A DNA stretch of 30,238 nt from a virus. The stretch lies in the IMG/VR virus record IMGVR_UViG_3300008459_000249, positions 1 through 30,238 of that record, one strand, 5' to 3'. The notes beneath the pieces are model-generated. The model was given only the letters and a program-made list of their open reading frames with translations, was not told the origin of the DNA and did not search any database. The position numbers and the translations under genes were made by a program. Below, in pieces: positions 2,885 through 28,254 of the stretch (within the stretch, counting starts at the first letter, position 1; each line of letters starts with the position of its first letter).

Positions 2885-2906
2885 CTTTTAACCTCTTAAT
2901 CTTATA

Positions 2907-2914: not shown

Positions 2915-2924
2915 TCTTACTGCA

Positions 2925-8857: not shown

Positions 8858-9468
8858 TACTGTACCTCATTCAATCCAGTTAAACTCTGTATACGAACTG
8901 TATAGTCAATTTGAATAAGTCTATTCAAAGACTTTTGCACAGGGTGGAAAATAACATGTGTAAGCAATCTTGGATTTCCTGTTGTACTGTAACTTACAAG
9001 TCCTAGTTCATCAAATACAAACCTACTTTCATTGTCGCTGGTGTTATCAAATGCATCTTGTCCTGCGGGCTCGCCGTAGTCTAATAAGCAAGTTACAAAC
9101 ACGTCAGTGTAGTATTTTCCAGAAACGTGTCTAGTTTCTATTCTGTTTCGTGTAGGGTCTAGATTAGATGAAGATCTATCATTTACAATTTTAGAATATG
9201 TTTGATTATACAAACTTGCGTTTGTACCAATTGAGTTTGGAGTGAGGTAGGTGATGATGCCAGTTGGGTCAACTGTAGTACCACCATTTCCAAACGCCAT
9301 CGAATTTATAAATCCTTGACCAGCATCAGCAATACTTTCTGCTAGCGCAATACTCATATTTTCATAATGAATAGCATTACGCTTATTAACAAAAACTTGT
9401 TCTGATACAGGGTCAAAAATCTTTATGTGGCCTTCGATATGAATTCCTGATAGATCTTTACCTTGCAT
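8857..9468 (-). CDS. Probable baseplate or fibre-associated structural protein, 203 aa
   Basis: A 203-residue soluble protein without signal peptide or membrane segment. Visible landmarks are GHIKIFDPVSEQVFVNKRNAI near residue 12-32, an amphipathic stretch HYENMSIALAESIAD, the glycine-rich GFINSMAFGNGG, and a C-terminal strand-rich part with FDELGLVSY and LTHVIFHPV. This arrangement resembles small structural proteins found beside fibre genes in aquatic T4-like phages, but I cannot name its T4 counterpart. It might occupy the place of gp9 or gp11, which join fibres to the baseplate, since it lies between the giant baseplate gene and the fibres; that is inference from order only. The gap to the upstream gene is 15 bases, with AAAGAG near 9475-9480 as a weak ribosome binding site. 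Confidence 0.82.
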   Translation of the reverse strand: MQGKDLSGIHIEGHIKIFDPVSEQVFVNKRNAIHYENMSIALAESIADAGQGFINSMAFGNGGTTVDPTGIITYLTPNSIGTNASLYNQTYSKIVNDRSSSNLDPTRNRIETRHVSGKYYTDVFVTCLLDYGEPAGQDAFDNTSDNESRFVFDELGLVSYSTTGNPRLLTHVIFHPVQKSLNRLIQIDYTVRIQSLTGLNEVQ

Positions 9469-9483
9469 ATTAGACTCTTTAAA

Positions 9484-10023: not shown

Positions 10024-10059
10024 AATAAAGACTCCTAATATTTTTATATTTAGTTAAAT

Positions 10060-10077: not shown

Positions 10078-10106
10078 TCGTGATAAACTGCTACTTTGAT
10101 TTCCTT

Positions 10107-13100
10107 TTAATATTTATCTTGATACTTATTTGGCCAAACTGACGGAGTATCTTTTAAGAAATTAGCCACTGTATTAGTAGATTTAGCTAACCTCTGTCCT
10201 AGATCATTCCACAGTCTGCCCTGCTTTTTAACTACTACAACCTTAAGTTCAACTTTTGCACCGTTGGTTAATGTTTTAATAGGTAACGCAGTTAGCTGTA
10301 AACGTGTTGTTCCAGTGGTGTTAAATTCTTTAACAACTGTTTGATCACCTTCTGGGCTATAAGGGTATTCAGTATTAAGATACTCTGTGTATTCTGATTT
10401 TCGTAGTCGTCTTCCGCCTACGAACACTTCAATTTCGTTAAGTTTTGGTATGTAAGGCAATTCAAGTATACCTTGAGAGTATAATAATGGATCATCAATT
10501 GCATTACCGGTTTTAATTACTTCGGTGTCCTTATAAGGAATTGTTTCTGAAGCGCCAATACCTTGGATTATACTGCCTGCTTCGTGGTAAGTTGGAAGTC
10601 CTGTTCCCAGTGTTCCGCGACGTAATTGACTTAATTTGTTACCAGTTTTGATAAAATATTCAATTCGTTCTCCGTTAATTTCAATAATTCCGGGTATGTT
10701 TTTAGCAGGATTCGGATCATCTAATTTTGAAGAATCAGCAACTGAAATTGTGTTATCTCCTTGATATAGATTTTCTGTTAAAGAAGTAGCTTTGTTTTTG
10801 TTAAGTCTCTTATAGTGAACTCTGTTTAATATATCTTTAAACTGCATGTAGCCAAAACTTTCGTGTACTACGGTATTTGTAAAGGCAATAATTTGAACAG
10901 CGTCTGTATCTAACAGATAATCTTTTAACCTTATAGTAATGTGATCTTTTTCAAGATAATAATCGATATTGTTACTTAATAACTTATTATTCTTAATTAC
11001 CCACACAAAATCTCCAGACACCGCAGTTTTACGCAGTCTAAAGTTACCGCCTAGTTTGCCAGCAAGCTCATAGAAGTCTGGAGTACCCGGAGCAACTTGT
11101 ATGATTGGTACTAGTGTATCAACGGTTCTTTCTACATCTAAAATATTATGATTATAGAAACTAATTACTTCAAATTTAGTTTGATTTGGATATGTATTTT
11201 TAAATGTAATTGAATTAGTTGTTGTAGTATAATCTCCAGTGTTATCTATTACTACAACAAAATCTTTGCCTTCCTGGTAGGTAGTCTGATTGAGAATTAC
11301 TGTAATATTTGGAGGGTTTGCTCGTACAACAAAATTAGCAGTGATTGTGCCGCCAGTACCAGAGCCGCCTGTGATTGCAAACGGACTTGCTGGAGGTGTA
11401 ACATATACACCTAAACCTACAACAATAACATCTTGTATTTCACCTGTAAATTGATTAATACGTGTAACTTCTAATTTAACAGGCGAACCAGAAATACCTT
11501 GGTCGCCTCCAACGGCATCAATAATGTTGCCTACTGCATAACCAGTGCCACCGTTAGGAACAACAGAATCTTTTTCAACTTCATAGGTAAAAATTGTATA
11601 GTCTAATTCAACGTTAAAGTCTGGACCTTGTACTAATTCTTTTTCGTCAATATAAACTTTTACATCGTTAGTGTTAATTAAACTAGGATCATATTTGTGA
11701 TCTTTTAAACTATACGACAGCAGATTGTTAGTCATAGTAAAATAATCTGCTGCTCTAGGAGTAAGGAAATTTTGACCTTGTTTTACTAGCACATTCTGAT
11801 CATAAGGTTTAGTTGTACCAATTCTGTTTGAAAGATTATAGGTAGACTGGCCTGTTAGATATACTATTTCTTCTGACTTAACAATCGTAGCATTGTTTTC
11901 TATGTTGCCAGAATCAATAATATAATTTATTACTGCACCTACTGCCGGCGGCGTAGCAAACTGTATACCAACTCTTGATCTCCAAGATTGATCTATTTTA
12001 TCTGTGTACTCATCATCAGTACTGAACAGTGAATATTCTGCTGGTTCACCGTTGACCAATACTATAGCGGTAGCAGTTGCAAACCATCCTGCTTTAGTAA
12101 TAAATTCTTTAGTAACTCCGTCACCTACAAAATAATCAGTATCAAGCATGTCAGACGACACAAATCCAATACTTATAATTGATATTATTTGATTTGTTGA
12201 AGGAATTGTTGTAAATTCTATTTTGTTATTTTGATAGTTAATTGTATAATCGTCTTCAATTTTTTTAATTTGATCATCTATTTTAACAATCACTGACGTA
12301 GCGTTACCAAAATATTGACCAATTAAATATCCCGTGCTTGCACCGTCAGCTACGTGATTTTTAAACATGATGTTAGGACAGCCGCCGCTAGGTCTATGAT
12401 ATACTTTAACTGATAGTGTATCATTGATCTGCCCAGGAACGAGTTCTTCTGTGCCGCCATTACGTTCTACAGAAACAAAATCATCTCCATCTAATACAAT
12501 GTCGTCAGGTGCAAGACCAGTTGCACTAGTTAATGCACCATTGGCAAACAATCCGCCTGATAACTGTGTATCGTAGGTGTCTTCGTCCATTGGATAGCTA
12601 CCATCTGACTCTTGCTTTCTAAATATGATTCGGTCACCGTATTTTCCAGCGTACACCGTAGTTTGAATTTCTCTTAATTGTAGATTTACAGATGTTGGAA
12701 CGTTGATAATATCAAATGCATTGTTTCCAGTAAATGTTAACATTACAGCATCTGTATTTGTCTGTAAAGGAGTATTATAGTAAGGATCATCAATTCGCAC
12801 TGGAGTATCGTATTTGTTACCCCAAACATAACCACCTATACCTAGTTGCGGTGTATTTTCTAAAATAATAATAAACTCTTTGCCTGATACAAGTCGTTTA
12901 ACAGTATGAATACCGTTGCAGTTAGGATCAGGGTCGCTAGGATCGGCTTTTACAATTCCTTCAATGATAATAGTTGCGCCGAGATCTAATTTATGATCTT
13001 CTTGTGTTACAATTTTTACTGCGTTAGACTCACTGTTAAACACAGTAATCGAATCAATTAAAGAAACATTAAATCTAGAAACGTAAATGTTTACCTGTTG

Positions 13101-16100
13101 ATTATTTGATGGAACATACGGTAGTCTAAACTCTGTAATTCCAGATTGTGTAACTGTAGAAATGTAATCAGTAAATTTTGGATTATAATTGTCCCACAGA
13201 CCAACACCCCAAGGAACTGCGTTCCAGCCATAGTTAATACCTAGGTCAATCCCACTGATAGTTGCTCCACCGTAGTCAACTCCCTGCATTAATTGATCTA
13301 AATCTTTTCCGAATTGACCAGTTACAGGGTTGTAATAGTAGTTAATTCTATCAGTTGCTGACAAGTGGTTAAAGTTTTTAGTGTACTCAATGGTGATAAC
13401 ACTACCAGCTGCTGGTGCAGAAGTAAATGTAATTAATCCTGAATAACTAGTATACCCTCTGTTAGTTGAAGTAACTGTAGATAGTTTATAGTCGCTTCGT
13501 AAAAGTTCTACGCCATTAATTGTTACGAACGATTTTCCATATTCTATTTCAGGACTCCATCGTAAAGGAAATTGTGTCTTTGACCCCGAAATAATATTTC
13601 CAGAGAACGTTTCATTTTCAATTAGGTCAGCTAACAAGTATGTTCCAGAAATTCGATCAAACTTAACAGTAATTTGATTTGATCTTATTAACGGATTGCC
13701 TATTACAGCTATTGCTTTTGCCTGCGTACCTGTTGAACTTAATCCACCCTTAATTTCAACAGTAGGTGCTTTACTAAAGTATCCACCGTAGTTGGTAATT
13801 TCAATTCTATTAATTTTACCATTTGAAATATAAGCCTTTGCTGTGGGATTTATTGTAACAAGCTTTTGATTATTTTCGTTAGTGCTTACACCCACGCCTG
13901 TTATTTTTACCACTGGCGGAGTCACATACCCATTGCCGGCATCTAAAATTTTAATTTCAATTAAAGAAAATCCAATGTTCTTTACAGTAAAGTTATTAAA
14001 ATAATCTAAATTATCTAAATTAGTTGTCTGACTAGTAACAACACCATCTTCGCCTACTATGATGCTCTTGTTCTGAATTTGATAGTTTTCAGTAACAGTT
14101 GGCAACAAATCAAAGTCTGAAATAAAAGTTTTACTAGGATCAATTGCATTATAATTACTGACGAATTCTCTTATCTTTGTTCTATAAGGTTTTACTTCTT
14201 TGATGTATTCTTCAAAGAATTCAAGATTATCGCTGTTATATGTAACTTTCTGTTTGAGTTCACCGACGTTATGCTGCCCTTTAACAAAGCTTGTTTTGAA
14301 AGCCCAGTCAACGTATATCTGCTCTGTAAGTGCATATCGTACACCAGCAAAGAATAATTTTAAATATTCTCCCTGTAGTTCGTCAACTAAAATTTTACTT
14401 TTAAGTGTGTTTAGAATAATTCTTAATTCAGATTCTGGATTACCGTCAAAGCTAAACGTATCGTATAACGGGCCGTCATATCCTAATGTATTTGTAGCAA
14501 ATTTATACAGACTTGAACTAAACTGAATTGATCCGTTCTGTCTACCAACTACAACATAATTATTTTCTGTGAGGTAGAAAGACTGCGCTATCTTTTTAAA
14601 TAACACCCAGCCACCAGATCCAAGATTAGCAACTTTAACAATACTACCAATAGGAATTTCTGTAGTAATTAGTTCGTAGGTATTGTTAACTAGATAATCA
14701 ATTTTTGTAAATTCATTATAAGTTTCTACTATCCCAGTTGTAGGATCAGTATAAGAACCATACCAGTTTATGTACGACCAATACTTTCTTACATCATAGC
14801 TTTGTGATTTGATCTTACTCCAAATTCTGTTGATAGGATCCCAAGTATAGATCGTCCATGTGTCATTATTGGTAGAATCTGACTGTACTAGTACACAGAA
14901 ATTTCTTACTACAATTCTTGTGCCAGATGAATATCCTTCGCCGGAGTTTTCAATAAGTATCTCAATAATTTTTCCTTCAGCATCAATAACTGATTTTAGT
15001 GCTGCTCCTTGACCGCTGCCAGTAACTGTCAATGACGGACCGTACCAACTTAAAGGATCATTGTTTACATCAACTTTGTAAACTTTTAGTCTACCATAAT
15101 TTTTACCAGAGTCAACAATATTGGCAGAAACTATTCTACCATTAAGCAACACTGGCGTAATAACAGCTTGGCGAATTAAAGTTGTCTGTACAAATCTTAA
15201 TTCTTCTTCAGTGTCAATTTTTTGATCCCATAGGCCAGAAACAACCGTTGGCTGCATTTCAAATTTCTGTAATGCTGATAGGTCGTAATCATCAGCCAGT
15301 AACTTGTCTTTAAGAATCATGTTAACTCTTTCAACGAATTGTTTTAGAGCTTCAATTCTGTTGGCAAACATGCCCTGTCTAGGTCTAAATTCTATACCGT
15401 AACGTTTCTTTTCAGGCAATGAAATATCTGGAACTAATCTTCCATTTTCATCTCTACCAACTAGACTATGGAACCATTTTTGTTCAATAGCATACGGAAT
15501 TTCAGTGCTTCTGTTAGTGCTTAATAATTTCCACTCGCTGTGATAATTGCTTTCTTTATATTCAGATTTCCAATATTGAATATTAACTGCAACATTTTTA
15601 GCATTTAGATATTTTTTACAATTTACTAGACTAAAACTATTTGGTCCTGTAAACGCAATGTAGCTATATCCGTAGGATGTTGGATCTGCTATTATTTTTG
15701 CAACGTCAAGGGCTGTTAAATTTCTACCTTCAACGTTTGGTACTGTGGTTTTATTTTTTACCCAGAAATAATAAGTTTCTTTGAATGTTTGACTTACCGA
15801 ATCATATCGTTTCTTTACACTATAAACTGAGTCGTCATATTTTGTAGTGCCTGTAATTCCTTGTGAAAGTCCTTTATCTGTACCAGATAACTTATTCCAC
15901 TGTGATGGCAGGATAGAACTTTCTACCCATTCATATACATCAATGCTGGCAAAAGGATGTGCTTCATTCCAATTAGTTGTTCTATAATTTACATCTCCTG
16001 ATTGAGGATCTGTAAATCTTGCAGTAGATAAATCCCACCACAGAGCACCAACCACTGACTTTGTCCAGTTTGCAGTCTCATCAACATTTACAGAATCTGT

Positions 16101-19100
16101 TCCTACAGAATAGTTTGCAGGATCAAAGTAAGTTTTATATTTGATTTCTTGATCGGCAATGCCGGGTATTTTACCGTAGATAGGATCTACTACATCAAGG
16201 TATTTAATAAGCTTACCTGTTTCTGTGCTGTATAGATAAACTTTTTTAATTTTAGTTACGTCAACACTTGGTATTTGTTCGTAATGTTTTTGCCAACTGC
16301 TTTCGCTAGCAGATTTAACATACGAATATACTCTACCAGAGCTTGTATAGTTAATAGAAGATACTACTCGATCAATATCAGATTCTGCTGCAAAAGACAG
16401 CAATAGAGTATTTTTATAACCAGAAATACTTGTAATATTTACTATTCGTCTAGCTGTCAACGAACCTGAGACAAAAGTTCTTGTGCCTGCAATCGTATAA
16501 GTGCCAGTTAGGCCTAAACCAGTTCCGTTAGAAATAATTTTTACAGGCGTAAGATTACTTCCGTAGATTGTAGCACCAACTTCAATTCTACCTAGCGTAA
16601 CATCAGTTACAGTTAGTGTTGTACCAGAAATAGAACCAACAAACGCAGCATCAGAAGTAGGAGTGATTGTTTCTCCAAAGATAAATGTTGAGTCTAATAG
16701 ATCAAAAATATCAATCTTGTTTTCATTAGAGGTTCTTTCAAATACAGTTAAGTTAGAATCAAATGTAGTTGAATTTGAATCAAACAACGTAGCATCAATT
16801 CCCGAACTTACAGAATAAGAGTATAGACTCTTATCATCATTTAAAAATCCGATGTCTGTGCCAAATTGCTCAGATCTATATTCTCTAGGACTTCTTAACA
16901 CTTGCCCTATACCAGCTGCCGGGTCGTGTACAAATCCTGTGTTTATATATTTGTAAATTCTTATTTCGCCTACATCAGCTTTTCCGTTTACATCTGTCCT
17001 AGCTGCACCGATGGCTAGAGTAAGACCGTCATTGGACAATGCCACTGATTGGCCTAGCCTTTCTTGATTTAGTCCTAGGAAAGATACTGGGCTAGTATAG
17101 CCGCTGTTAAATTCATAGACAAATACCTGTCCAGAGTTTAGGCCATCTCCAGGAGCAGAAATTACTAATATTTTTCCGGTGTTTGAACACGCAATATCAA
17201 ATCCAAAATATTCATTTGTTGATATACCTGCTGGTGCCGGTATCGATGTTCCTGCGCTCCACCCAACATTAGTATAGTTATAATAATAAGCTCTACCTGT
17301 ATTGCTAGTATAGCCAGTGGCTGCTACAAACAATCTGTATTCGTTGCCTGTAGTTGACCAAGCAAGACTACTGCCAAATTTATCACCGGCTGTTTGGCCT
17401 ATTAATGTTGCATTTATTTCAAATGTTCCAGATTTTTGTCTAAAATAAATCTGTACTTGGCCTTTGTCAGAATCATGTGTTGGTACGCCCACAGCTAACC
17501 AACTTCCGTCATGACTAAATTTTAAAGTGGTTGCAACTACATCGGTAATTCTATCAAACAATGACCAAGAATTGTCGCTTGAACCTTTTTGATATAATGC
17601 TACATATTCAGCTGTAGCTACTGCGGCTAAATTACCAGATCCGTCTATTGCTATACAGCGACCAAAATTAAACGAATTTGCAGGTTCTAAATTAACTAAA
17701 TTATCTTTTCTATAAACAGGATTGTTCTTGTAAACAATATAGTTACCTGCTTGATTACTATCAATCCATGCTAATTCATTTGGTTTAAACTCATCCGGAA
17801 GATAAGAGTTTAAAGTAGTAATGTGAGGAGAACGTTGTTTAAAAACTTTATATGTTACAATAGTATCTGCATCGGCAAAAGATTGCCAACCTTGAACGTC
17901 TTTAACAAATTTAAATTGATTACCGTTAACTACTGTAACTTTATGGAATCCATTTAATTTTTCTGTTCCTTTAATACCAATTATGTCACCCACTGCCAAT
18001 GGAGGCAATGCAAAGGATGTTACAGTTACTTGTTTAGAAGAATTTTCATAGGCTACTGTTTTAACTTTTAAATCATACAGACTAAATCTATACACTGACC
18101 AATCTCTAGACTCAAAAGCTGCCCAGATGTAATCACCGTTAGAAAAATCATTTACATTTAAAGTAATAACATTGGCTATTGATCTTACTGTAGCTTTAAC
18201 ATCTTCAACTCTTACATAACCGCTAGTTCTTAAAAATCTATTAGTAGTATAAGTTGGCCAAATGTTATTTGTGTAGCTCAGAGGTTTAACATAAACATCT
18301 GTAGGTTTATATCTGTAGACAAAATCTTTTTCGTTAATATCAATTGAATCAACTAGTTCAACCGGCTGTGGATTGATTTTAAATTTATTTTCATCTAAAA
18401 TAAATTCTACCTCATCAAAGGTATCAACTGCTCCGTACTCCCCTACACGGAAAGCCCACTCTTCGTCAAACGTTAAACTTTCTTGACCGTCAGCACTTAA
18501 CACATCAAACAGTTTGTTCAATACATTCTGCGTGCCTTTTTCAATAATCATACCCTGATAGAACTTGTATTGACTTACATCATTCTGAATAATGTTTTCG
18601 AGGTATTGACGTTTCTGATAACCAATTAAATGCTGTGCTACTTTTTGCTGACCTGCATCAAAATTGTCAGTATCAAGGTCGTAGAAATCTGTAAACTGTT
18701 CAGCACGATAATCCCAGTTAGGTAATAATTGAGATTTAGGAGTTTCTTCTAAAATCACCCAAGTATCGTCATTGAATTCACGTACACCCTGAATTCTTTC
18801 TTTGGCAGCATAATAAAACTGTTTATATTTTACAATATCACCGAGATTATAATCAGTCCATGGTTCCCACTCTTGAATTTTAGCTTCGTCGTAGATGAAC
18901 CCTTTAATTTCAAACCCTCCGGTCCAACCAGCTGCTATATAACCTATAACTTTAATTCTTTCTTGATGATAACCTGCTTCAATATCGTAGATGGTATCAT
19001 TAAACAAAGTCTTGTTATCAAGGACAACTACGTGTTCCTTCTGTATTAGGTGCAGAGTAATTCCGTAGATACCATAGTTGGTATTTTCTGGTTCGATTAC

Positions 19101-22100
19101 AAATTGATTTTCATTTCTATAAACTTTTATAAATTCTTCATCTAACTTTTGTCCGTCAACTCGAAGAACACTATAGGTATAAAAATTATCTGTCAAATCA
19201 GCAACCACTGAATTTTGAGATTGGAAAATAAGTTTATTAGCACTAGGACTTATACTGAGCACTGAACCCTCTGCCCAGTTCTGTGTAGTCCAGAACGCAA
19301 ATTCTTTTGCACTAGTTTCCCAGTTTGTTACTGTTCCCAGATTATTATTAAAATCATCAAAGACAAAACCTTGATCTTCTAGATAGGCACCGTAGCCCAT
19401 GATGATGTCAACTACTTCTTGTACTGTTGCAATTCTTTTGCCATATGGTATCTTGTCAACATTGTTAGCATTAAAATTCTTTTTTAACTCTATTTCTCTA
19501 CCGCCAATAATTGGTAGTTCTGCAAGTCTAGCATACAGGCGATCATCAAACTCTGTTGAAGCAGTGTGAGTAGTTTTTGCTCTGTAATATAAATTATTAT
19601 ATCTTACAATTTTGCCAGAAGTATAAATTTCTCCTGCTTTCCACTCAAGGAAACTTTCACTGATGCCACCAACTTTAATCACCCTGTCTACTAATTTAGA
19701 CTTGTAAACAATGAAGTAAGGATTTTGAGTATTATAACCTTTTACTTCGTAGCCGTTACTAAATCTTGTAATCAATATACCGCTGTAAATTACTTTTCTT
19801 ATAGCACTTGATGTATTAAGACTAACTGAATAATTTTCTTCAGGCACAAAAACTCCGCCAGCACTGGTTGGAGTTTTGCTGTCTAATAGAATTTTAAATT
19901 TTTCTTTATTAGTGTAAGATCCTAATCTTGTTGACATTTTATTAGTCAACGATGCTAGATCATATTTGTATTGGGTTAATCTTGCTGTATTTTTACTAGT
20001 AAGATATTCAACAACATAGTTTACTAGCCCCGAAGTAAATCTTCTGTCTGTTTCTACTTCATCAGCAACAGAAGGAAAAATAAGATCTTGTAATCTAATA
20101 CGAAGGCCAGTTTCAGAATACACTAATTGGCCAGTATTATTTTTTACAATCCTGCTTCGGTCTATGCATCGTCCAAGGATATCATTTGGTTTTAACAATA
20201 GTATTGTACTAATTAATGCAAATGGATAATAACTGCTTTTTCTCCAAGCAGCTTCAACAGGGCCTTGGTCGCCAAAGACATAAAAAGAATCTGTTGAATT
20301 TTGCATTAGTCCTGCTACATAGCCTGCGTTTAACGGATCAAGTAAAATTCCATTAGTGTCAGCTGGCGGACCTTGGTCTAAAATTAATCTAGCAAATTGT
20401 TTGTTAAGTCTAGGAGGTTTACCAGGCTCTCTAATTAGACCTTCTTTAAGGTCATCCCATAAAACTAGGTTATCGCTAGTATATGGAGCAGGTCCGTAGA
20501 CATCTTGCCACCAAATTGGTTCAATAAAAAATCCTAATGATTCCCAAGGTGTAAGATGAGGCGTGTCTGTATCAAAGAACCATTTGTATATTCCTCTCCA
20601 ATATGCAGGTGCAAGTCTACCATCAGGTGCTACATGATCTCTATAATTGTAAGTAAACGCATTTTCTCTGTCATAGAACAACGGACGAGAATAGTCTTCT
20701 TGAATATTAAGAGTCCATTGATAAAAATATTTTGATAGTACTGAATTAAATTCATCTACTGTATAATCATTTTCTCTACTGTAACTTGGAATATAATTGA
20801 ATATATTAAACAATTCAGTATCATAAGATACTTTTACATTGTTAAAAATTCGTTTTTCTAATTCTAAAATTAAATCGTCTCTATAATCATCAAACGCAAT
20901 AGTAATACTACCGTCATGTCCTTGTATAACTTTGACTGGTTCAATGTATGTGTCGTCAACATAGATTGAAGGTTCAAATAATGGATACAATCCTAGCTTA
21001 CTAGGAGTAGGTGGTACAAAGCATCCATCAGTTGATTCGTATTCATATACTTCAATAATATCGTTTTCGCTTAACTCTGCTAGGAGTGTAACAAACTCAG
21101 TGTCTCCAAATACATAGTCTCGACCGTGTACTAATTGAACATCATTAAGGTATACTCCGACAGCACGATTAGACAATGTTTTTAAATTAAACAATTGACT
21201 TAAAGGATACGATGTAGTTCTAGCATCTAATACTGTGTATTCTGTACGATTTGCTGCGGTATACCCGAACATATCAGAAAGATAATAAGGACTAGATTTA
21301 GGTTTATTTGCAAACATATTTTGCAATATAAAATCTACGTGTCTTCTTGGCTCAGCATCAAAACCACTGTCAGATGCAGCAATAATAAATGCTCTTTTAA
21401 ACTGTGCATAGTCAGTACGTGCAGTATCTAATGCCTTGAGTAGGTTAGCAGACTTATTACCAAGATGATATAAAGAAAGGTTCATTGGACCTGTATGCTG
21501 TACGAATCTTGTTCCGTATTCGCTTAATCGTCCAGCATCTCTTAAGATTGCTTTAGGGCCGTTATTAAAAAATACCAACGGATTGTTACCAATGATAGAG
21601 TCAACGTGATCAATTACTTCACCAAGGGTAAAGTCTTGAATGTTGTTGTTCAACGGATTATTTTCTAAATTAATTGGTAATTTATAATAGCCGTTTTGAT
21701 TTTTATGTTTCTTTGTAAAGCATTCTATAGTAACCATTGAGTCAACAGCATCTGTGGTCAATCTTACTAGTTTGTAAACAACGTCATCAACAATAGAAAA
21801 CTTTGACGGAATTAATCGTGTACCGTTAACATAAACTTTGACTAATAAATCTTCTAGTCCATCTTTAGTATCAAAAACATCTAATGGAAAATCGTTTACT
21901 ATTGACACTGTAGATCTTACACCATTTTCGTCAACTACTGTTTTAGTTTCATTTTTATAAGTTCTTACAATAGGCTGCACGTTGGACAATACATTTTTAA
22001 TCCAGCCGTTTTCATACTTAATACTGTCTAAATTATCAATTATTTTGAGAAAGCCATTGCTAATCGATTTAGAAATTAAACTAGATCCTAGTTTGTATTT

Positions 22101-24257
22101 GAATTCAGGATCGGATGCTAGGTTAAAATTGAATAAGATGTCGCCTATGTTATTGATATTTTGATAGGTTAAGGCAAACCCTAATACTGTGTCTACAGAA
22201 CCAACACCTGTTTTATAAGAAAAAATCTTATTACCGGCAAAGGTAGATCCGCTGTATTTTGTAAGATCAGAAAAGCTTACACCGCTGTCGTCAAATATAT
22301 CAAACAACGGAGCCTGATTTACTGCTGTTTTTTCCTGGGCAGCTTTCCAACTTGTTCCATCAAACCAAAATGTTTTAGATTGATTCTGTATTCCTAAATT
22401 AACTGTAACAGTTTCATATTCCACAGGAGAAGAATCTTGAGTTTCTTCTAGGTAAATTTGCTTACGCGGATACTTGAATAATTCAAATTTATGCGTACCT
22501 TCTCCCTTGGCCAATATATCTACTCTTACAGAAAGGTCAGGTTTAGTGTATAATTCGATAGTTACTGCATCAATGACATTTACATAATATACTTGTCTAT
22601 GAGTAAGTCCTGGGACCGAGTCTAATGTAACGTTATTGTAAACTACTCTGCTTTTTACTGTGAGGCCGTGATTAGCACCAAACGTGATAGTGTTTAAAGC
22701 AGGATTAACTTGTGTGGCATCAAACAACAGTTCTGAAGTTTGAGGTGTTACATCAATAAAATTAACTTTATAAATTTTATTTTTTACTAACGAATCGGTG
22801 TCTGCGGTGAACAGGACACGCATACCTTGTATTAGATCTATGCCGTCTATGTTATAGCCAAGGCTTCCTTCGATAGTACTAAAAATGTCTTTGGTAAAAG
22901 TATCAATTACATCAACTGGAGTTTTAGCCGCATGACCGTAGTTGAATAATTTAATACCTGGTCTAAATTCAATAATAGGTCTAGTAGCTCTAAAATTTTG
23001 ATCTAAATTTGGTTCTTCACCTATTACTTGGGCGCTGGCGATAATAACATCTTGATGGAACCAGCGATTATAACGAGACCATGGATTTTGATCAGGACTT
23101 GTTCTACTAATTGTTACATAGTCAGGTCTCACTGGATAAGTTCCAACTTCACTGAACGGCAGTTGATCAAACGGTGTATCATCAAACAATATACTTTTAT
23201 CTGCTGAGAATGTTGATCTTATTTCAAGGGCACGCTCTGCTACTATTCGTATAGCAGTACCAACACCTTCGATATAATATGCGCCGTCGGCGTAATTGCT
23301 AGGAATAACTTCCCCACCAAATCTTACTTTCATTCCGTTACTAACACGCAGACCTTCTGCGGTACCGTTAGGAATAATGTATTCTTTTTTTCCTAAAAAA
23401 TCTGCATTAAGATCAATAACTGTGTTTTCTTCAATATCTAATATTTGAAAGACTCCGCCGGTGTCTACTGAATTTTCACTAACATAGAATAATACGTTTG
23501 GTGCATCAAGTGGTACTTCAAACGTAATAATACCTTCTTGTACTGCAATACCAGTAACTCCTTTAACATATCTATCGTTAGATCCGCCCGATCTTGCTGA
23601 CTTAATACTGAAAGGATGGCCAGGTGCATTAATTTCAAAATTATAAGTTTGACCTCTAAATAATTTTAGTGTTGGATTTCTTGTAAGGCCGTTAGGCGTA
23701 AAAAGATAAGCTACATTATCTGTTTCGTCAACACCTTCAACTGTATAGGTACTTTGTATTGCTTTATCGGCACCAAAAATTGTAATAGTGCTGGGACCAA
23801 ATGGCAACCAATAGTACTGTTGATAATTAACAAACTTATCCCAACAGATATGCGGATCCCATGAATAAAACTCCTGACTGTTTAATCTATTATGGTTACT
23901 TACAATACCGTCATTTGTTTCAATATGATTAATATGATCAATGTAGTCTTTAAAGAATGTTGTATTACCTAGATAGTCTTGAATAATTGCAGCCGGTTCA
24001 AACTGATAATTTTGTCGTACTGTATCTACTGCTGTTACAAAGATGTCATCAGTTTTTACAGCTTTAGCTGTTTGACGGCCCATATAGCCGTTAATTTTTC
24101 TAACACTACCGGGTTGAATAAGTTGATCAAGCGTTGCCTGTAAAAATTTCTTATTACTATTTGTTCTATAATATCTAGGTAATAGATCTGAAGAATTACG
24201 TTTTTCAGAATTTGAAATTGGCAATTTTGGCTCGTTTTGATCATTGGTGAATGCCAT
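10107..24257 (-). CDS. Giant 4716-aa modular baseplate/tail structural protein
   Basis: An uninterrupted frame for a protein of roughly 0.5 MDa. Approximate parts in order: 25-160, a conserved N-terminus (RYYRTNSNKKFLQ to YYWLPFGPS); 186-275, a cupredoxin-like fold; 520-570, a NHGL-type strand repeat; 1215-1290, a Trp/Pro-rich block (YWRGIYKWFF, EPIWWQDVYGPAPY); 1340-1513, a mixed alpha/beta block; 1537-1579 and 1793-1836, CBM5/12-like modules; 2190-2665, an FG-GAP-like propeller with an insert at 2535-2605; 3043-3118, 3433-3508 and 4233-4320, GxGY-type strand repeats; 3286-3366, a helical block with VKPYRTKIREF; 4489-4579, an INGERIEYF-LRRGTLGTG domain. Strand units like VYVNGTRL recur near 801, 1031, 3575, 4061, 4196 and 4606. 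There is no signal peptide. The ATG overlaps the gp6 stop as TAATG, with GGGAG upstream. It follows gp6 and precedes the fibres, the place of T4 genes 7-11, so an outer-baseplate role is likely but inferred. Confidence 0.92.
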   Translation of the reverse strand: MAFTNDQNEPKLPISNSEKRNSSDLLPRYYRTNSNKKFLQATLDQLIQPGSVRKINGYMGRQTAKAVKTDDIFVTAVDTVRQNYQFEPAAIIQDYLGNTTFFKDYIDHINHIETNDGIVSNHNRLNSQEFYSWDPHICWDKFVNYQQYYWLPFGPSTITIFGADKAIQSTYTVEGVDETDNVAYLFTPNGLTRNPTLKLFRGQTYNFEINAPGHPFSIKSARSGGSNDRYVKGVTGIAVQEGIITFEVPLDAPNVLFYVSENSVDTGGVFQILDIEENTVIDLNADFLGKKEYIIPNGTAEGLRVSNGMKVRFGGEVIPSNYADGAYYIEGVGTAIRIVAERALEIRSTFSADKSILFDDTPFDQLPFSEVGTYPVRPDYVTISRTSPDQNPWSRYNRWFHQDVIIASAQVIGEEPNLDQNFRATRPIIEFRPGIKLFNYGHAAKTPVDVIDTFTKDIFSTIEGSLGYNIDGIDLIQGMRVLFTADTDSLVKNKIYKVNFIDVTPQTSELLFDATQVNPALNTITFGANHGLTVKSRVVYNNVTLDSVPGLTHRQVYYVNVIDAVTIELYTKPDLSVRVDILAKGEGTHKFELFKYPRKQIYLEETQDSSPVEYETVTVNLGIQNQSKTFWFDGTSWKAAQEKTAVNQAPLFDIFDDSGVSFSDLTKYSGSTFAGNKIFSYKTGVGSVDTVLGFALTYQNINNIGDILFNFNLASDPEFKYKLGSSLISKSISNGFLKIIDNLDSIKYENGWIKNVLSNVQPIVRTYKNETKTVVDENGVRSTVSIVNDFPLDVFDTKDGLEDLLVKVYVNGTRLIPSKFSIVDDVVYKLVRLTTDAVDSMVTIECFTKKHKNQNGYYKLPINLENNPLNNNIQDFTLGEVIDHVDSIIGNNPLVFFNNGPKAILRDAGRLSEYGTRFVQHTGPMNLSLYHLGNKSANLLKALDTARTDYAQFKRAFIIAASDSGFDAEPRRHVDFILQNMFANKPKSSPYYLSDMFGYTAANRTEYTVLDARTTSYPLSQLFNLKTLSNRAVGVYLNDVQLVHGRDYVFGDTEFVTLLAELSENDIIEVYEYESTDGCFVPPTPSKLGLYPLFEPSIYVDDTYIEPVKVIQGHDGSITIAFDDYRDDLILELEKRIFNNVKVSYDTELFNIFNYIPSYSRENDYTVDEFNSVLSKYFYQWTLNIQEDYSRPLFYDRENAFTYNYRDHVAPDGRLAPAYWRGIYKWFFDTDTPHLTPWESLGFFIEPIWWQDVYGPAPYTSDNLVLWDDLKEGLIREPGKPPRLNKQFARLILDQGPPADTNGILLDPLNAGYVAGLMQNSTDSFYVFGDQGPVEAAWRKSSYYPFALISTILLLKPNDILGRCIDRSRIVKNNTGQLVYSETGLRIRLQDLIFPSVADEVETDRRFTSGLVNYVVEYLTSKNTARLTQYKYDLASLTNKMSTRLGSYTNKEKFKILLDSKTPTSAGGVFVPEENYSVSLNTSSAIRKVIYSGILITRFSNGYEVKGYNTQNPYFIVYKSKLVDRVIKVGGISESFLEWKAGEIYTSGKIVRYNNLYYRAKTTHTASTEFDDRLYARLAELPIIGGREIELKKNFNANNVDKIPYGKRIATVQEVVDIIMGYGAYLEDQGFVFDDFNNNLGTVTNWETSAKEFAFWTTQNWAEGSVLSISPSANKLIFQSQNSVVADLTDNFYTYSVLRVDGQKLDEEFIKVYRNENQFVIEPENTNYGIYGITLHLIQKEHVVVLDNKTLFNDTIYDIEAGYHQERIKVIGYIAAGWTGGFEIKGFIYDEAKIQEWEPWTDYNLGDIVKYKQFYYAAKERIQGVREFNDDTWVILEETPKSQLLPNWDYRAEQFTDFYDLDTDNFDAGQQKVAQHLIGYQKRQYLENIIQNDVSQYKFYQGMIIEKGTQNVLNKLFDVLSADGQESLTFDEEWAFRVGEYGAVDTFDEVEFILDENKFKINPQPVELVDSIDINEKDFVYRYKPTDVYVKPLSYTNNIWPTYTTNRFLRTSGYVRVEDVKATVRSIANVITLNVNDFSNGDYIWAAFESRDWSVYRFSLYDLKVKTVAYENSSKQVTVTSFALPPLAVGDIIGIKGTEKLNGFHKVTVVNGNQFKFVKDVQGWQSFADADTIVTYKVFKQRSPHITTLNSYLPDEFKPNELAWIDSNQAGNYIVYKNNPVYRKDNLVNLEPANSFNFGRCIAIDGSGNLAAVATAEYVALYQKGSSDNSWSLFDRITDVVATTLKFSHDGSWLAVGVPTHDSDKGQVQIYFRQKSGTFEINATLIGQTAGDKFGSSLAWSTTGNEYRLFVAATGYTSNTGRAYYYNYTNVGWSAGTSIPAPAGISTNEYFGFDIACSNTGKILVISAPGDGLNSGQVFVYEFNSGYTSPVSFLGLNQERLGQSVALSNDGLTLAIGAARTDVNGKADVGEIRIYKYINTGFVHDPAAGIGQVLRSPREYRSEQFGTDIGFLNDDKSLYSYSVSSGIDATLFDSNSTTFDSNLTVFERTSNENKIDIFDLLDSTFIFGETITPTSDAAFVGSISGTTLTVTDVTLGRIEVGATIYGSNLTPVKIISNGTGLGLTGTYTIAGTRTFVSGSLTARRIVNITSISGYKNTLLLSFAAESDIDRVVSSINYTSSGRVYSYVKSASESSWQKHYEQIPSVDVTKIKKVYLYSTETGKLIKYLDVVDPIYGKIPGIADQEIKYKTYFDPANYSVGTDSVNVDETANWTKSVVGALWWDLSTARFTDPQSGDVNYRTTNWNEAHPFASIDVYEWVESSILPSQWNKLSGTDKGLSQGITGTTKYDDSVYSVKKRYDSVSQTFKETYYFWVKNKTTVPNVEGRNLTALDVAKIIADPTSYGYSYIAFTGPNSFSLVNCKKYLNAKNVAVNIQYWKSEYKESNYHSEWKLLSTNRSTEIPYAIEQKWFHSLVGRDENGRLVPDISLPEKKRYGIEFRPRQGMFANRIEALKQFVERVNMILKDKLLADDYDLSALQKFEMQPTVVSGLWDQKIDTEEELRFVQTTLIRQAVITPVLLNGRIVSANIVDSGKNYGRLKVYKVDVNNDPLSWYGPSLTVTGSGQGAALKSVIDAEGKIIEILIENSGEGYSSGTRIVVRNFCVLVQSDSTNNDTWTIYTWDPINRIWSKIKSQSYDVRKYWSYINWYGSYTDPTTGIVETYNEFTKIDYLVNNTYELITTEIPIGSIVKVANLGSGGWVLFKKIAQSFYLTENNYVVVGRQNGSIQFSSSLYKFATNTLGYDGPLYDTFSFDGNPESELRIILNTLKSKILVDELQGEYLKLFFAGVRYALTEQIYVDWAFKTSFVKGQHNVGELKQKVTYNSDNLEFFEEYIKEVKPYRTKIREFVSNYNAIDPSKTFISDFDLLPTVTENYQIQNKSIIVGEDGVVTSQTTNLDNLDYFNNFTVKNIGFSLIEIKILDAGNGYVTPPVVKITGVGVSTNENNQKLVTINPTAKAYISNGKINRIEITNYGGYFSKAPTVEIKGGLSSTGTQAKAIAVIGNPLIRSNQITVKFDRISGTYLLADLIENETFSGNIISGSKTQFPLRWSPEIEYGKSFVTINGVELLRSDYKLSTVTSTNRGYTSYSGLITFTSAPAAGSVITIEYTKNFNHLSATDRINYYYNPVTGQFGKDLDQLMQGVDYGGATISGIDLGINYGWNAVPWGVGLWDNYNPKFTDYISTVTQSGITEFRLPYVPSNNQQVNIYVSRFNVSLIDSITVFNSESNAVKIVTQEDHKLDLGATIIIEGIVKADPSDPDPNCNGIHTVKRLVSGKEFIIILENTPQLGIGGYVWGNKYDTPVRIDDPYYNTPLQTNTDAVMLTFTGNNAFDIINVPTSVNLQLREIQTTVYAGKYGDRIIFRKQESDGSYPMDEDTYDTQLSGGLFANGALTSATGLAPDDIVLDGDDFVSVERNGGTEELVPGQINDTLSVKVYHRPSGGCPNIMFKNHVADGASTGYLIGQYFGNATSVIVKIDDQIKKIEDDYTINYQNNKIEFTTIPSTNQIISIISIGFVSSDMLDTDYFVGDGVTKEFITKAGWFATATAIVLVNGEPAEYSLFSTDDEYTDKIDQSWRSRVGIQFATPPAVGAVINYIIDSGNIENNATIVKSEEIVYLTGQSTYNLSNRIGTTKPYDQNVLVKQGQNFLTPRAADYFTMTNNLLSYSLKDHKYDPSLINTNDVKVYIDEKELVQGPDFNVELDYTIFTYEVEKDSVVPNGGTGYAVGNIIDAVGGDQGISGSPVKLEVTRINQFTGEIQDVIVVGLGVYVTPPASPFAITGGSGTGGTITANFVVRANPPNITVILNQTTYQEGKDFVVVIDNTGDYTTTTNSITFKNTYPNQTKFEVISFYNHNILDVERTVDTLVPIIQVAPGTPDFYELAGKLGGNFRLRKTAVSGDFVWVIKNNKLLSNNIDYYLEKDHITIRLKDYLLDTDAVQIIAFTNTVVHESFGYMQFKDILNRVHYKRLNKNKATSLTENLYQGDNTISVADSSKLDDPNPAKNIPGIIEINGERIEYFIKTGNKLSQLRRGTLGTGLPTYHEAGSIIQGIGASETIPYKDTEVIKTGNAIDDPLLYSQGILELPYIPKLNEIEVFVGGRRLRKSEYTEYLNTEYPYSPEGDQTVVKEFNTTGTTRLQLTALPIKTLTNGAKVELKVVVVKKQGRLWNDLGQRLAKSTNTVANFLKDTPSVWPNKYQDKY
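10111..10118 (-). promoter_or_regulatory. Candidate late promoter GATAAATA at end of giant gene
   Basis: The minus strand reads GATAAATA, fitting the NATAAATA late consensus described for T4-like cyanophages. It overlaps the last codons (Asp-Lys-Tyr) of the giant gene. Transcription from it would start near 10104 and give the 179-residue gene a leader of about 80 bases holding the hairpin at 10060-10077. The match is coding as well, so chance is possible. Confidence 0.4.
16260..17705 (-). other. FG-GAP-like beta-propeller region of the giant protein
   Basis: Residues of about 2190-2665 contain repeated units of the form FG-x-(S)-(I/V)-A-x-(D/T)-G-x-x-LA-(V/I)-x-A followed by G-x-V-x-(I/V)-Y. 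Visible blade starts are FGRCIAIDGSG, LKFSHDGSWLAVG, FGSSLAWSTTG, FGFDIACSNTG, LGQSVALSNDG and FGTDIGFLNDD; closing strands include GQVQIYF, GRAYYYN, GQVFVYEF, GEIRIYKY and KIDIFDL. A further strand set with GRVYSYVKS and SSWQKHYEQI would make seven. This is the FG-GAP_2 / integrin-type pattern, in most units without the calcium-binding DxDxDG loop. Such propellers usually bind proteins or glycans. Confidence 0.7.
16444..16654 (-). other. Small repeat domain inserted in the propeller
   Basis: Residues of about 2535-2605 read AAFVGSISGTTLTVTDV, GRIEVGATIYGSNL and GTGLGLTGTYTI. This is a strand-rich unit of a type I recognise from many phage fibre and adhesin proteins, unrelated to the FG-GAP units on either side. 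It falls between the sixth and the proposed seventh blade. An inserted, separately acquired domain is the simplest reading. Confidence 0.6.
18751..18880 (-). other. Second CBM5/12-like module of the giant protein
   Basis: Residues of about 1793-1836 show the chitin-binding type 3 pattern: W-x-x-W, then YNLGDIVKYKQFYYAA, and a closing DDTWVIL. The spacing of Trp, Tyr, Gly-Asp and Tyr-Tyr matches the small CBM5/12 fold. These modules also occur as generic structural units in phage tail proteins, so carbohydrate binding is possible but not shown. Confidence 0.5.
19522..19650 (-). other. First CBM5/12-like module of the giant protein
   Basis: Residues of about 1537-1579 read LEWKAGEIYTSGKIVRYNN, LYYRAKTTHTAS and FDDRLYARL. 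This follows the same W, Y-x-x-G-x-x-V-x-Y-x-x-x-Y-Y-x-A pattern as the second copy about 256 residues later. The paired arrangement supports a genuine repeated module. Confidence 0.5.
23434..23700 (-). other. Cupredoxin-like domain with lost copper ligands
   Basis: Residues of about 186-275 follow the pattern of cupredoxin-like domains of aquatic phage structural proteins: FRGQTYNFEINAPGHPFSI, GIAVQEGIITFEVPLDAPN, LFYV and TGGVFQI. The first ligand-type histidine is present (His214 in GHPF). The usual C-x-x-H-x-x-M loop reads S260-E-N-S263-V-D-T266, so Cys, His and Met are all replaced. The fold is probably kept as a structural element without copper. Confidence 0.6.
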
Positions 24258-27200
24258 TAGTTACTCCCTGAGCTGTTTACAGACTGTTTGCTTGCCAGTG
24301 TTGATTCAACGGCAATTTGACCTGCACTTTTAATTTTACTTGCAGTAATAGCTGTTATAATTTCTATATCATCTATTGTAGCGCCATTGATGAATAATTG
24401 ATCTTTTTCGCTTCTTATTTCATATAAGCTACCAAAACTTAAATCACTTTGTTTTGGCACAACAATAAAGTTTACAATGTTTGGTGAAAGTCTATTCATT
24501 ACATAAGTTGACAACTCGCTAAAATAGAAATTGTCTCCAAATTCCCAATTTTCTAAACTAAAGAATTCAGCTATGGCTGTAAGAACTCTAGATTTAATAT
24601 CGTTATCACTGATAACAATTTCATCATTCTTAACAACCTTAAATGTAGCCTGTACATCTGAAGTAGCTTTGCTACCAAATAAAACTTTATACTTTACAGG
24701 ATGATAGATAATTTCATCGCTGATAGATTTAATTTTGTTTAATTCAGGACTTAACAAATTAAACAATTCATCACTGCTAGGAGCTAAAGGCTCTACAGTT
24801 TTTGAACCGTTTATATATTGGCGATATTGAATGTCATACTCTTTGGTCAACACATAGATATCAATTAGATTTGTTAATCCAGGATCAATTCTTGCTTCGT
24901 AGTCAGCGTTATGAATGTATTGAAATTTTAATCCGCTTCTTCCTGCATAGACTTTATAATTTAAACTAGGTTCAAATACATCATCTGCATTTAATTGTGC
25001 AACAAAATTTTCTTCAACAAAATAAAAATAACTGCCTAACTTTTGTAGGTCTCCAGAGCTTACAGATAGTTTATTCTGACGAATTAAAATTTTATCATCA
25101 TCGTTTGATATAAATCTGTAGTCTTCTTGTCCCTGTGTTATTACGTACTTTTCTAATACAATAAATTGATTCTTTACAGGAGGAATAGTCACTGTTGGAA
25201 CTATCTCTTCGAACAAATTAGGATTATCAACTATACCGTCATCGTCACTGTCGCTGAATGTGATTTGAATTTTTTTAGTGTCAATGTATCCGTCAAGTCC
25301 TTTAAACTCTTCGGTAACTTCCCAGTCTCTATCATAGGTAAAAGATGTAATGTTGTTTGGCTGTGTGTTTATACTTAAAATTTTAATTTTGTCTTTGACC
25401 ACTGTGTTAGTTCTTGAATCATAAATTTTATCACTAGAATCAAAATAGAATCTTACCTGCTGGTTGCTTTCAAAGATATATCTAACTAATCGAGAAGTAA
25501 CTGTGTATTGCTCGCTGTCTGTGTTAAACAACAGCAACCAACTTGAATCAACATTTTGATTTGTTGCGTCGCCTGCTCGTCCTAGACTGAACACGTTAAT
25601 TGTGTTTAGGTTACTGCTGATAATAATTTTCCAAGAACGTGATTCTGAATCATATCGTAGACCAAATGATTTATTTGCAAAAATTAAATCAACCATAGAA
25701 GCTACTGTGGCACTGTCTAGTGCAGTTTTCCATGCTGGAATAATTTCTTCTAACTGAGGAGCTGTCTGCAACTCAGTGGTTGATGTTGTTTTGTTGTAAG
25801 CTGAAGGAATAATATCGTTGAGTACAATAGGACCAGAACCGTCTACTAGTTCACCGGTGCCACCAGAAGTACCATCACCTGAAATTGCCACTACCTTTGT
25901 CCACAAAATTTGTGTTGCGTTAGTACTTGTTGGATTGCCCAACACTAATTTATTATTATTTGATTTATCAAAGTAATAGTTTGCCGGAGCTCTAAATTTT
26001 AACAACGATCCAACAGTGATGTACTTTAGTGTGTTAGTACCAGTGGCAAATGTTCCTACTTTCTGTATTGTAGTTGTGATGTCATCTTTAAAATAACCAG
26101 TAACTTGATTAGTATCAGAAGTTTTAATAATCCATTTAATACCTAATTCAGAAGTATTTGGTCTGTCAAATTTACTATAATAAAAATGTTTTAAGTTTGT
26201 TAATTTTAAATTATCAGTAACTTGATTATAAATTACAGCTTCAATGTCTGTTCTAGTTGCATAAGAAAATTTAAAACTGTCAATGTATTCTTGTTTGTAA
26301 ACAATGCCGTCGTCAGCAAATAAATTTGTCTTTGAATATTTGCCTGTAGGATCAACTAGATCAAAATAGCGACTGATGCCACTGGCTGATCTATTAACTG
26401 CTTTAATTTTACCAATTTGTTGACTTACGCTTAATGGGCTAATGTTATAGTCCTCAGCAGTAATCATTCTGTTCTGCGTATAATAAGTTGCAGGAGCACG
26501 AGCTTTGATGTTGTCGTTGGTTTCAGCAGGACTTGAATTAGACACTGAACTTTGTAATCCTAAAGTTACTGTCATTGTCTCAAGCTGTCCGGTGTTGCTT
26601 ACATAAGGAATATCAATTGTGATATTTTTTACATCTTTAGGATTGATAGTATAATTTAATCCGTTACTTGTTCTATAATATACTCTAAAAGTTCCTAGAG
26701 GTAAATTACCAAATACACCATCACTGAACACTAGACTAATTTTGTCGTTGGCTCTAGTGACTACACCGTAGATATTTCGTATGCTTTTGTTTAAACTATT
26801 ATAGATAATATTGTTGCCTTCAAAGCTAGGAACTTGTGCCCAGTATTCGTTTTCAATACCGTTTTGATCTAACTTATAAAGCCAAACATCGTTATTGTTG
26901 ATGTTAACTGCATCAACATCTACTGTTTCGTCGGTAGCAGGCTGTGTAACTGCAAAAGTACCTTGATTTAATGTGCCCTGTCTAAAATGTAGGAAAAATC
27001 CTGTGTTAGAGCTGCCATTGCCTTTGCCGTCATCTCTGTAGATAAAACTTAAACGATTAGCAATACTTGGAGGTTCTTCATAGATTTCAGACTCGCCACT
27101 AAACGCTGTACTTACTACTTCAAATGTCATGCTACGACCGTCTACTGTTTTAGTAAAACTATAAACAGGTACATCAGTATTAGCACCTTGGAATCTATAT

Positions 27201-27757
27201 TGTTCGCTAGGTATACCGTAGATTGTGTCTTTTGCATCAGGATTGCCAAACTTTCGTGTTGCTGGCAAGGCTGCATTTATTATTTTGATAAACTGATCGT
27301 ACCAGTTAGGGTTTGCAGGATCGTTCCAGCTAATTGTCTGCCCTGTTAAATTTCTGCCGTTGCTGTCGTAGACAATCTGTGTTGTACTTACTGAAGTAAA
27401 CTTTAAAAACCCGCTAGCAGGCACATTTCTTTTGGCTTTATAACTTAATAATCTAGCTAGACGTAGCACTGACTCGCGGCGTTCTGCCAGCTCTAGGAAG
27501 TTTTCTCGAGCATTTAGATCCGTGCGGAAACTTATGCTTTGTCCTAAAAAGGCTATAAGATCAATTAGAGCAAGGTACTCAGAACTTTCAATGTAATCAT
27601 TAAAATCTTCAGGATAGTTTTCACGGATGTAACTGATCATTACCCTGCGAAGGTTTTCAAAGTCGTAGCTTTGAAAATCTGCGTTTTGAAAACTTTGGTA
27701 AATTCTTTTCCAGTCTTCTGCTACTAAAAGTCTATTTTGGCGATCGGTTGCTGACAT
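24257..27757 (-). CDS. gp6: Baseplate wedge protein gp6, enlarged (1166 aa)
   Basis: The N-terminal part (about residues 25-125) has the gp6/baseplate-J type helical start: FENLRRVMISYIRENYPEDF, YLALIDLIAFLGQSISFRTD and ARENFLELAERRESVLRLA. Around residues 380-440 come NYTINPKDVKNITI and ETNDNIKARAPATYYTQNRMITAEDY, the Baseplate_J core. The C-terminus (about 1092-1132) has NFIVVPKQSDLSFGSLYEI and IDDIEIITAITASKIK, characteristic of T4 gp6. gp6 dimers join neighbouring wedges into the inner baseplate ring around the hub. T4 gp6 has 660 residues; the extra 500 lie mainly between residues 500 and 1050, in strand-rich sequence I cannot assign. The ATG (27755-27757) is preceded by GGGAAA, a 53-base gap and an AATAAATA motif. 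Its stop overlaps the start of the giant gene, so the two products are probably made in linked amounts. Confidence 0.93.
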   Translation of the reverse strand: MSATDRQNRLLVAEDWKRIYQSFQNADFQSYDFENLRRVMISYIRENYPEDFNDYIESSEYLALIDLIAFLGQSISFRTDLNARENFLELAERRESVLRLARLLSYKAKRNVPASGFLKFTSVSTTQIVYDSNGRNLTGQTISWNDPANPNWYDQFIKIINAALPATRKFGNPDAKDTIYGIPSEQYRFQGANTDVPVYSFTKTVDGRSMTFEVVSTAFSGESEIYEEPPSIANRLSFIYRDDGKGNGSSNTGFFLHFRQGTLNQGTFAVTQPATDETVDVDAVNINNNDVWLYKLDQNGIENEYWAQVPSFEGNNIIYNSLNKSIRNIYGVVTRANDKISLVFSDGVFGNLPLGTFRVYYRTSNGLNYTINPKDVKNITIDIPYVSNTGQLETMTVTLGLQSSVSNSSPAETNDNIKARAPATYYTQNRMITAEDYNISPLSVSQQIGKIKAVNRSASGISRYFDLVDPTGKYSKTNLFADDGIVYKQEYIDSFKFSYATRTDIEAVIYNQVTDNLKLTNLKHFYYSKFDRPNTSELGIKWIIKTSDTNQVTGYFKDDITTTIQKVGTFATGTNTLKYITVGSLLKFRAPANYYFDKSNNNKLVLGNPTSTNATQILWTKVVAISGDGTSGGTGELVDGSGPIVLNDIIPSAYNKTTSTTELQTAPQLEEIIPAWKTALDSATVASMVDLIFANKSFGLRYDSESRSWKIIISSNLNTINVFSLGRAGDATNQNVDSSWLLLFNTDSEQYTVTSRLVRYIFESNQQVRFYFDSSDKIYDSRTNTVVKDKIKILSINTQPNNITSFTYDRDWEVTEEFKGLDGYIDTKKIQITFSDSDDDGIVDNPNLFEEIVPTVTIPPVKNQFIVLEKYVITQGQEDYRFISNDDDKILIRQNKLSVSSGDLQKLGSYFYFVEENFVAQLNADDVFEPSLNYKVYAGRSGLKFQYIHNADYEARIDPGLTNLIDIYVLTKEYDIQYRQYINGSKTVEPLAPSSDELFNLLSPELNKIKSISDEIIYHPVKYKVLFGSKATSDVQATFKVVKNDEIVISDNDIKSRVLTAIAEFFSLENWEFGDNFYFSELSTYVMNRLSPNIVNFIVVPKQSDLSFGSLYEIRSEKDQLFINGATIDDIEIITAITASKIKSAGQIAVESTLASKQSVNSSGSN

Positions 27758-27810: not shown

Positions 27811-28254
27811 TTACCCTAGTAGACCGTTGGCTTCATCGAATCGTAAACGAAGAGATTCTTGAATGTTATAAGGCAAGTAAACAAGATCGCATTCTATCTG
27901 TATGCCTGTTTCATACGCAGTGACAGTAACACTCTGCGCTACAATTCTTGGATCATAGTTAATGATTGTTTCAACGTTTTTAACAATAATTTCTTTAATA
28001 TCTTCTGTGAGTGGCTCAAATATCAAGTCCCAGATCACAGTACCAAATTCAGGCTGTTCTAATCTTTCTCCCATTCTTATGTGAAAATGGTTGATTAAAT
28101 CTTGTTTGATCAATGCAAGATCAAACAAGGCAAAACTCTTGCTGTCTCCGCTAATTGTGCTGAAACCTTTGTAGGTTTTTGAACCGGGCACATTAGGACG
28201 GCCGGCTGGACCGTTAACAACAATTTTATCGTAGAGTTTTTGATTAGCTGTCAT
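27811..28254 (-). CDS. gp25: Baseplate wedge protein gp25
   Basis: A 147-residue member of the GPW/gp25 family, the baseplate component shared by contractile phage tails and type VI secretion (TssE). Landmarks are ALIKQDLINHFHIRMGERL, then the family signature EFGTVIWDLIFEPLTEDI, then NYDPRIVAQSVTV near the middle and a final strand pair. T4 gp25 has 132 residues; the difference is an N-terminal extension of about 30 residues (KLYDKIVVNGPAGRPNVPG). In T4, gp25 sits at the inner baseplate, clamps the gp6 dimer and nucleates the sheath, which fits its place directly before gp6. The ATG lies at 28252-28254, ten bases after the hub gene. AAGAG overlapping that stop is a rather distant ribosome binding site, so coupling to the upstream gene is likely. 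Confidence 0.94.
   Translation of the reverse strand: MTANQKLYDKIVVNGPAGRPNVPGSKTYKGFSTISGDSKSFALFDLALIKQDLINHFHIRMGERLEQPEFGTVIWDLIFEPLTEDIKEIIVKNVETIINYDPRIVAQSVTVTAYETGIQIECDLVYLPYNIQESLRLRFDEANGLLG

Follow-up and report, generated by a model that had tools for sequence, protein, structure and literature searches.

The 4716-residue protein encoded directly after gp6 in the window (the whole stretch of DNA analysed, a 30,238-bp contig that is a fragment of a virus record, its own genome being incomplete) is probably a huge jumbo-phage wedge scaffold that stands in the place of T4 gp7. Judged by its sequence, it is a new member of an already known family, PHROG 10938. The giant appears ordinary in kind, yet our modelling suggests that it has a large, confidently predicted core lacking a solved counterpart. 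An earlier note on this DNA had proposed that T4 genes 7 to 11 were fused here and supplemented with adhesin-like modules. What that note said of the size, continuity and position of the gene, of the absence of gp7-gp11 from the window and of the modules holds up, whereas the fusion itself does not.

The reading frame and its surroundings

The giant virion protein gene (10107..24257, minus strand, as are all the genes and segments placed below in the window) runs uninterrupted from an ATG to a single terminal stop. Its ATG overlaps the gp6 stop codon (TAATG, with the start one base into the stop) and is preceded by an AGGGAG ribosome site. On the gp6 side lie gp6 itself (24257..27757; phrog_10646 E 3e-294, phrog_219 E 6e-18), the baseplate wedge gene gp25 (27811..28254; GPW_gp25 match) and a gp5-like hub gene (28265..29926). 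An open reading frame at 29926-30237 was considered as gp53 and rejected by eye; it resembles the end of another hub or structural gene, and in relatives gp53 is a separate short upstream gene. On the other side of the giant are small genes, among them a conserved 203-aa gene (phrog_11259; 8857..9468) that lies downstream of the giant in relatives too, followed by three fibre genes, at 6164..8857 (with a tail-collar domain), 2925..6164 and 1100..2884. The three share an N-terminal domain (IGKN...ENF..LLENFA...GQ.WYD), also found across relatives, which may anchor these fibres to the baseplate. In two relatives, the region downstream of the fibres (L196:12014-19063 and L197:195-12235) holds a run of genes that by eye resemble glycosyltransferases and radical-SAM proteins.

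We compared the frame across independent copies. Two contigs of the same virus (L002, L004) are 100% identical over the query and have the same 4717-codon frame, and a further contig that is (near-)identical to the window (L017) has a single frame of about equal length. Closed non-redundant copies (n = 36, the window's included) span 3326-5174 aa; a larger set holds 106 closed single frames of 2121 to 5612 codons, with a few odd ones among them. About 110 contigs assembled independently have a closed frame, and almost all of these carry a single giant at the locus, typically of 4000-5200 residues, which rules out the misassembly or missed stop that the earlier note had allowed for. The 4716-codon frame between gp6 and the fibre genes is real and no artefact.

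Some copies depart from the single frame. On the 74.6-kb contig L219, the giant is two adjacent genes, 5350-13692 (2780 aa) and 13726-17631 (1301 aa), split just ahead of the VDWAFKTS helix, at about window residue 3299; the C-terminal part is therefore separable. At L275:4250-6733 (also in L277 and L280), about 2.5 kb interrupts the propeller part of the gene and includes, besides other open reading frames, a TnpB-like fragment (CPSCGTKHDRDLNASVNI); a mobile element may have landed there. Finally, the frame is broken in L007 and L049 within roughly the same blade of the propeller, near window residues 2310-2340. L007 lacks about 135 bases at the break and otherwise matches the window exactly over the compared stretch; the break reflects either a collapsed assembly or a genuine hot spot of deletion.

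A conserved backbone with exchangeable inserts

The best family of the giant is PHROG 10938, 'virion structural protein' (E 0, 1069.8 bits, 5 stretches), with homology running segment by segment along the chain and a locus directly after gp25 and gp6. Homologues follow gp6 in RaK2 (ORF070, 3326 aa), GAP32 (GAP32_230, 3341 aa), PA5oct (PQE65_gp355, 3857 aa), Atu_ph07 (AUZ94962, 4449 aa), Phosso (XYS97451, 4555 aa), XaC1, 121Q (gp582) and others; SCTP-2 has a homologue of 3807 aa. The order gp25-gp6-giant is kept in RaK2, GAP32, PA5oct, Atu_ph07, Phosso and others. In Vibrio phage 2.275.O, a long gene in gp6's place, ahead of the giant (L201:12022-15885), has a CBM5/12 module in its own annotation.

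Family members have been found in virions. In phAPEC6, gp245 (381.88 kDa) was identified by 17 unique peptides at 7.6% coverage and adjoins the wedge gene product gp244 (PMC7247149); in CBB, CBB_236 was identified by 21 peptides at 7.72% coverage and adjoins the wedge protein CBB_237 (PMC5259590). We equated gp245 and CBB_236 with the giant gene by their adjacency to these wedge genes. The PA5oct database record carries an ESI-MS/MS note on its giant. By analogy with the published proteomics of phAPEC6 and CBB, the window giant would be a virion protein as well. It shares with the PHROG 10938 phages its place after gp6 and its core segments, and differs from its relatives there in being longer and in having more or other inserts (an FG-GAP propeller and C-terminal modules).

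Matching a profile of window-type giants to remote lineages recovered, in nearly all of them, seven segments with a total of about 2100 residues. These core matches are nearly all at E 1e-14 or better, and the inserts between them differ in sequence and in whether they are present at all. Core segment 1 (residues 20-150; 23808..24200) matches RaK2, GAP32, Atu_ph07, PA5oct and Phosso at E 5e-17 to 1e-43. After it comes a beta-module insert (residues about 190-280; 23418..23690), absent from the RaK2 group and also present in cyanophage baseplate or tail proteins, whose fold, named by eye, would be YHYH/cupredoxin-like. Core segments 2 (residues 377-500; 22758..23129), 3 (609-1000; 21258..22433) and 4 (1075-1790; 18888..21035) each have profile matches in jumbo lineages. 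Inside segment 4 lies a chitin-binding-type CBM_5_12 module (residues 1538-1568; 19554..19646) at E 1.3e-5 and 25.6 bits, just under the Pfam cut-off of 26.2. A second CBM-like stretch (1794-1836; 18750..18878), where the profile region matches the CBM position of L104, cross-matches the first.

Core segment 5 (residues 1843-1970; 18348..18731) bears a helix-helix-strand motif, FYxGxIxxKGT...EEWA, and is a candidate gp7/tail-protein-I core. It is followed by a variable, beta-propeller-like insert (residues about 2000-2600), of which an FG-GAP repeat (2346-2381; 17115..17222; E 2.6e-7, over the Pfam cut-off) is part. Core segments 6 (2640-3000; 15258..16340) and 7 (3145-3390; 14088..14825; VDWAFKTS and KPYRTKIRE motifs), the former matched in jumbo lineages, the latter likewise by profile, are each neighboured by an insert of GxGY-type repeats. 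The first of these (3030-3119; 14901..15170) and the second (3430-3510; 13728..13970) are of a type that recurs many times in the giant of Prochlorococcus phage P-SSM7. The C-terminal part of the giant is variable. The adhesin-like modules that the earlier note had claimed are thus borne out by the CBM5/12 and FG-GAP matches, the one just under its cut-off and the other over it.

Comparison with the T4 wedge proteins

Because the window is a fragment of a genome, its silence on genes that may lie elsewhere weighs little, and we used near-complete relatives instead. The other open reading frames of the window match none of the gp7-gp11 families. In the large near-complete relatives gp7 was not found by sequence, nor were gp8 and gp11; phrog_438 (gp8) matches in the giants proved to be a shared repeat module and not gp8 proper. 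All large relatives searched have gp6, and in them the gp53 core is a short separate gene, with weak matches in a consistent place. Among the T4 homologues in CBB are gp4, gp6, gp13, gp15, gp25 and gp53, with gp7-gp11 unnamed in the available text (PMC5259590).

For gp9 and gp10 the relatives are informative. In PA5oct, Gp10_C (E 1e-23) is carried by a 581-aa protein encoded separately, a few genes downstream of the giant, and in several near relatives T4_gp9_10_N belongs to genes other than the giant. Many relatives have the gp9/gp10 N-terminal domains in genes of their own, one of which is a 373-aa gene immediately downstream of the giant in one genome (G006, L194:4959-6080); the domains also occur in very long open reading frames of relatives, of 2545-4015 aa. 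The relatives' fibre gene next after the 203-aa gene, which corresponds to that at 6164..8857, has weak Gp10_C similarity. Thus, gp9/gp10-type parts lie outside the giant, at least in those relatives. The gp10 homologues elsewhere which the earlier note had thought would count against its reading are present in relatives, though none is seen in the window's own incomplete genome. The window and its identical contigs, all of which are fragments, yielded no gp9/gp10 domain; the common N-terminal domain of the window fibres aligns with the gp9/gp10 N-terminus in the right register (INENF), at a similarity that is not significant.

Within the giant itself, 23 overlapping 400-aa slices were compared with alignments of the T4-family proteins gp6-gp12 and gp53. 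The best probability was 4%, and the slice-wise comparison with gp7-gp11 that the earlier note had suggested yields nothing above this value; the limited diversity of the alignments on both sides reduces the power of this test. Searched by sequence against the PDB, the full-length protein gave no match. For structure prediction, two slices of the more compact RaK2 homologue (63-65 diverse rows) were modelled in place of the window protein. The first, a 1200-residue core equivalent to window residues about 20-1490, had a pLDDT of 85.7 and a pTM of 0.83; a Foldseek search of the PDB with it found no match (best E 0.21). Among predicted viral structures its strong matches were large phage proteins, including the Atu_ph07 giant, and there were weak partial matches to fibre-type proteins. 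Since the PDB includes T4 baseplate proteins, this result speaks against gp8-gp11 folds in residues about 20-1490, and the N-terminal core would, as modelled, have a fold without any solved counterpart. The second model (window residues 1592-3425), of moderate confidence (pLDDT 71.7, pTM 0.46), had no PDB match below E 0.1 and would be weaker evidence of the same kind. No gp8, gp9, gp10 or gp11 domain was found inside the chain, the fold test being strong for residues about 20-1490 and the comparison after about residue 3425 being one of sequence.

T4 gp7 (1032 aa; phrog_964; Pfam Gp7_helical, Gp7_5th and Gp7_6th) and the giant both directly follow gp6, with a vague resemblance in motif, and show no significant similarity in sequence or fold: phrog_964 is silent in all jumbo relatives, and neither core model has a PDB match to the gp7 fold, the motif-bearing part being modelled at moderate confidence. 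The motif lies in an invariant cluster of the jumbo giants near residues 1878-1942 (IGY..R.YL......Q.KFYQGMI.EKGT......L........EEWAFRVGEYG), predicted as helix-helix-strand-strand, and its FYxGxIxxKGT..EEWA unit recalls DFYSTKG of T4 gp7 and HKGT..EW of P2 gpI. Its hhalign probability against gp7 was about 1%, no better than that of other slices. Profiles of the gp7 motif (T4, cyanophage or both) run against 150-aa slices and 180 giants gave scattered best matches, mostly off the motif, and a larger motif alignment found the right register at E 0.04. Tail_P2_I (PF09684) had no match in 20 genomes, a result that carries no information because this profile misses T4 gp7 too. The resemblance to the DFYSTKG core is suggestive, a lead below significance.

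A cyanophage provides a precedent for expansion of gp7 itself. P-SSM7 (NC_015290 54052-75426, L113) encodes directly after gp6 a 7124-aa protein, PSSM7_090 (phrog_701), whose residues 689-716 match the gp7 motif significantly (E 1.3e-6; P-SSM7 VKDFYSTKGTSFSIAYLFKLLYGEQV against T4 YDFYSTKGIEASYKFLFKVLYNEEV), with an hhalign probability of 97% for T4 against cyanophage. It looks, from this motif, like a hugely expanded gp7; its annotation is merely virion structural protein. The P-SSM7 and window giants are alike in position, giant size and GxGY-type repeats. Unlike the window giant, that of P-SSM7 has the significant DFYSTKG motif and is followed by separate gp9 and gp8 genes, and the core homology is absent from it by sequence.

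A probable role in the baseplate wedge

Taken together, equivalence of the giant to gp7 is likely by position, and we favour a wedge scaffold in gp7's place. Gp6 and the giant would be made in step by coupled translation, and the chain would join the baseplate wedge, presumably as one copy per wedge and six per virion. The roughly 2100-residue backbone that jumbo lineages share would form the wedge body and hold the wedge together. The lineage-variable inserts (CBM5/12, FG-GAP propeller, GxGY repeats, YHYH/cupredoxin-like) would probably face outward, touching host-surface sugars or bracing fibres, with fibres and gp9/gp10-type connectors supplied by separate genes. Against this stand the lack of a significant gp7 match and the functions of gp8 and gp11, for which it does not account. 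A scaffold with its own fold, unrelated to T4 gp7, might instead replace gp7, gp8 and gp11 together, its exchangeable inserts making the baseplate itself a sugar-binding surface; this we regard as possible, if doubtful.

Another way to view the giant is as a peripheral carrier of adhesins or fibres on the wedge, with gp7's structural job done by another protein or by gp6, which is enlarged as well (1166 aa against 660 in T4). The several adhesin-like inserts and the unproven gp7 similarity fit this view. However, all lineages examined have the backbone in well-conserved form, as one would expect of a structural core more than of a part that sets host range, and no alternative gp7 candidate was seen, so that we consider it unlikely. 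Cleavage of a polyprotein into several virion parts during assembly is much less credible: the extreme length, a weak match to Peptidase_G2 (autoproteolytic chaperone-type) in a 179-aa gene downstream and the low peptide coverage given for phAPEC6 and CBB (PMC7247149, PMC5259590) could be read this way, but nearly all relatives keep one intact frame, the same sources list each giant as one protein, and no cleavage site was identified.

T4 genes 7-11 together encode 2475 aa, in agreement with the earlier figure; of their products, gp9, gp10 and gp11 function as trimers and gp8 is dimeric. Fusion of these five genes with adhesin modules, to which the position and size of the giant, the undetectable gp7, gp8 and gp11 in near-complete relatives and the separable parts of the L219 giant had lent some appeal, is the least probable reading and highly improbable, since no slice has a gp7-gp12 profile match, the confident N-terminal model has no counterpart in the PDB, relatives encode Gp10_C and the gp9/gp10 N-terminal domains apart from the giant, neither L219 part matches a T4 gp7-gp11 family, and a single chain in each wedge would provide neither the trimers nor the dimer.

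Size and position alone, then, do not justify calling such giants fusions. Little of the baseplate is annotated in T4-like jumbo phages, and a conserved giant in gp7's place, with a shared backbone and exchangeable modules, is a target for structure work. The core model without a PDB counterpart suggests that the jumbo-phage wedge may be built unlike that of T4.
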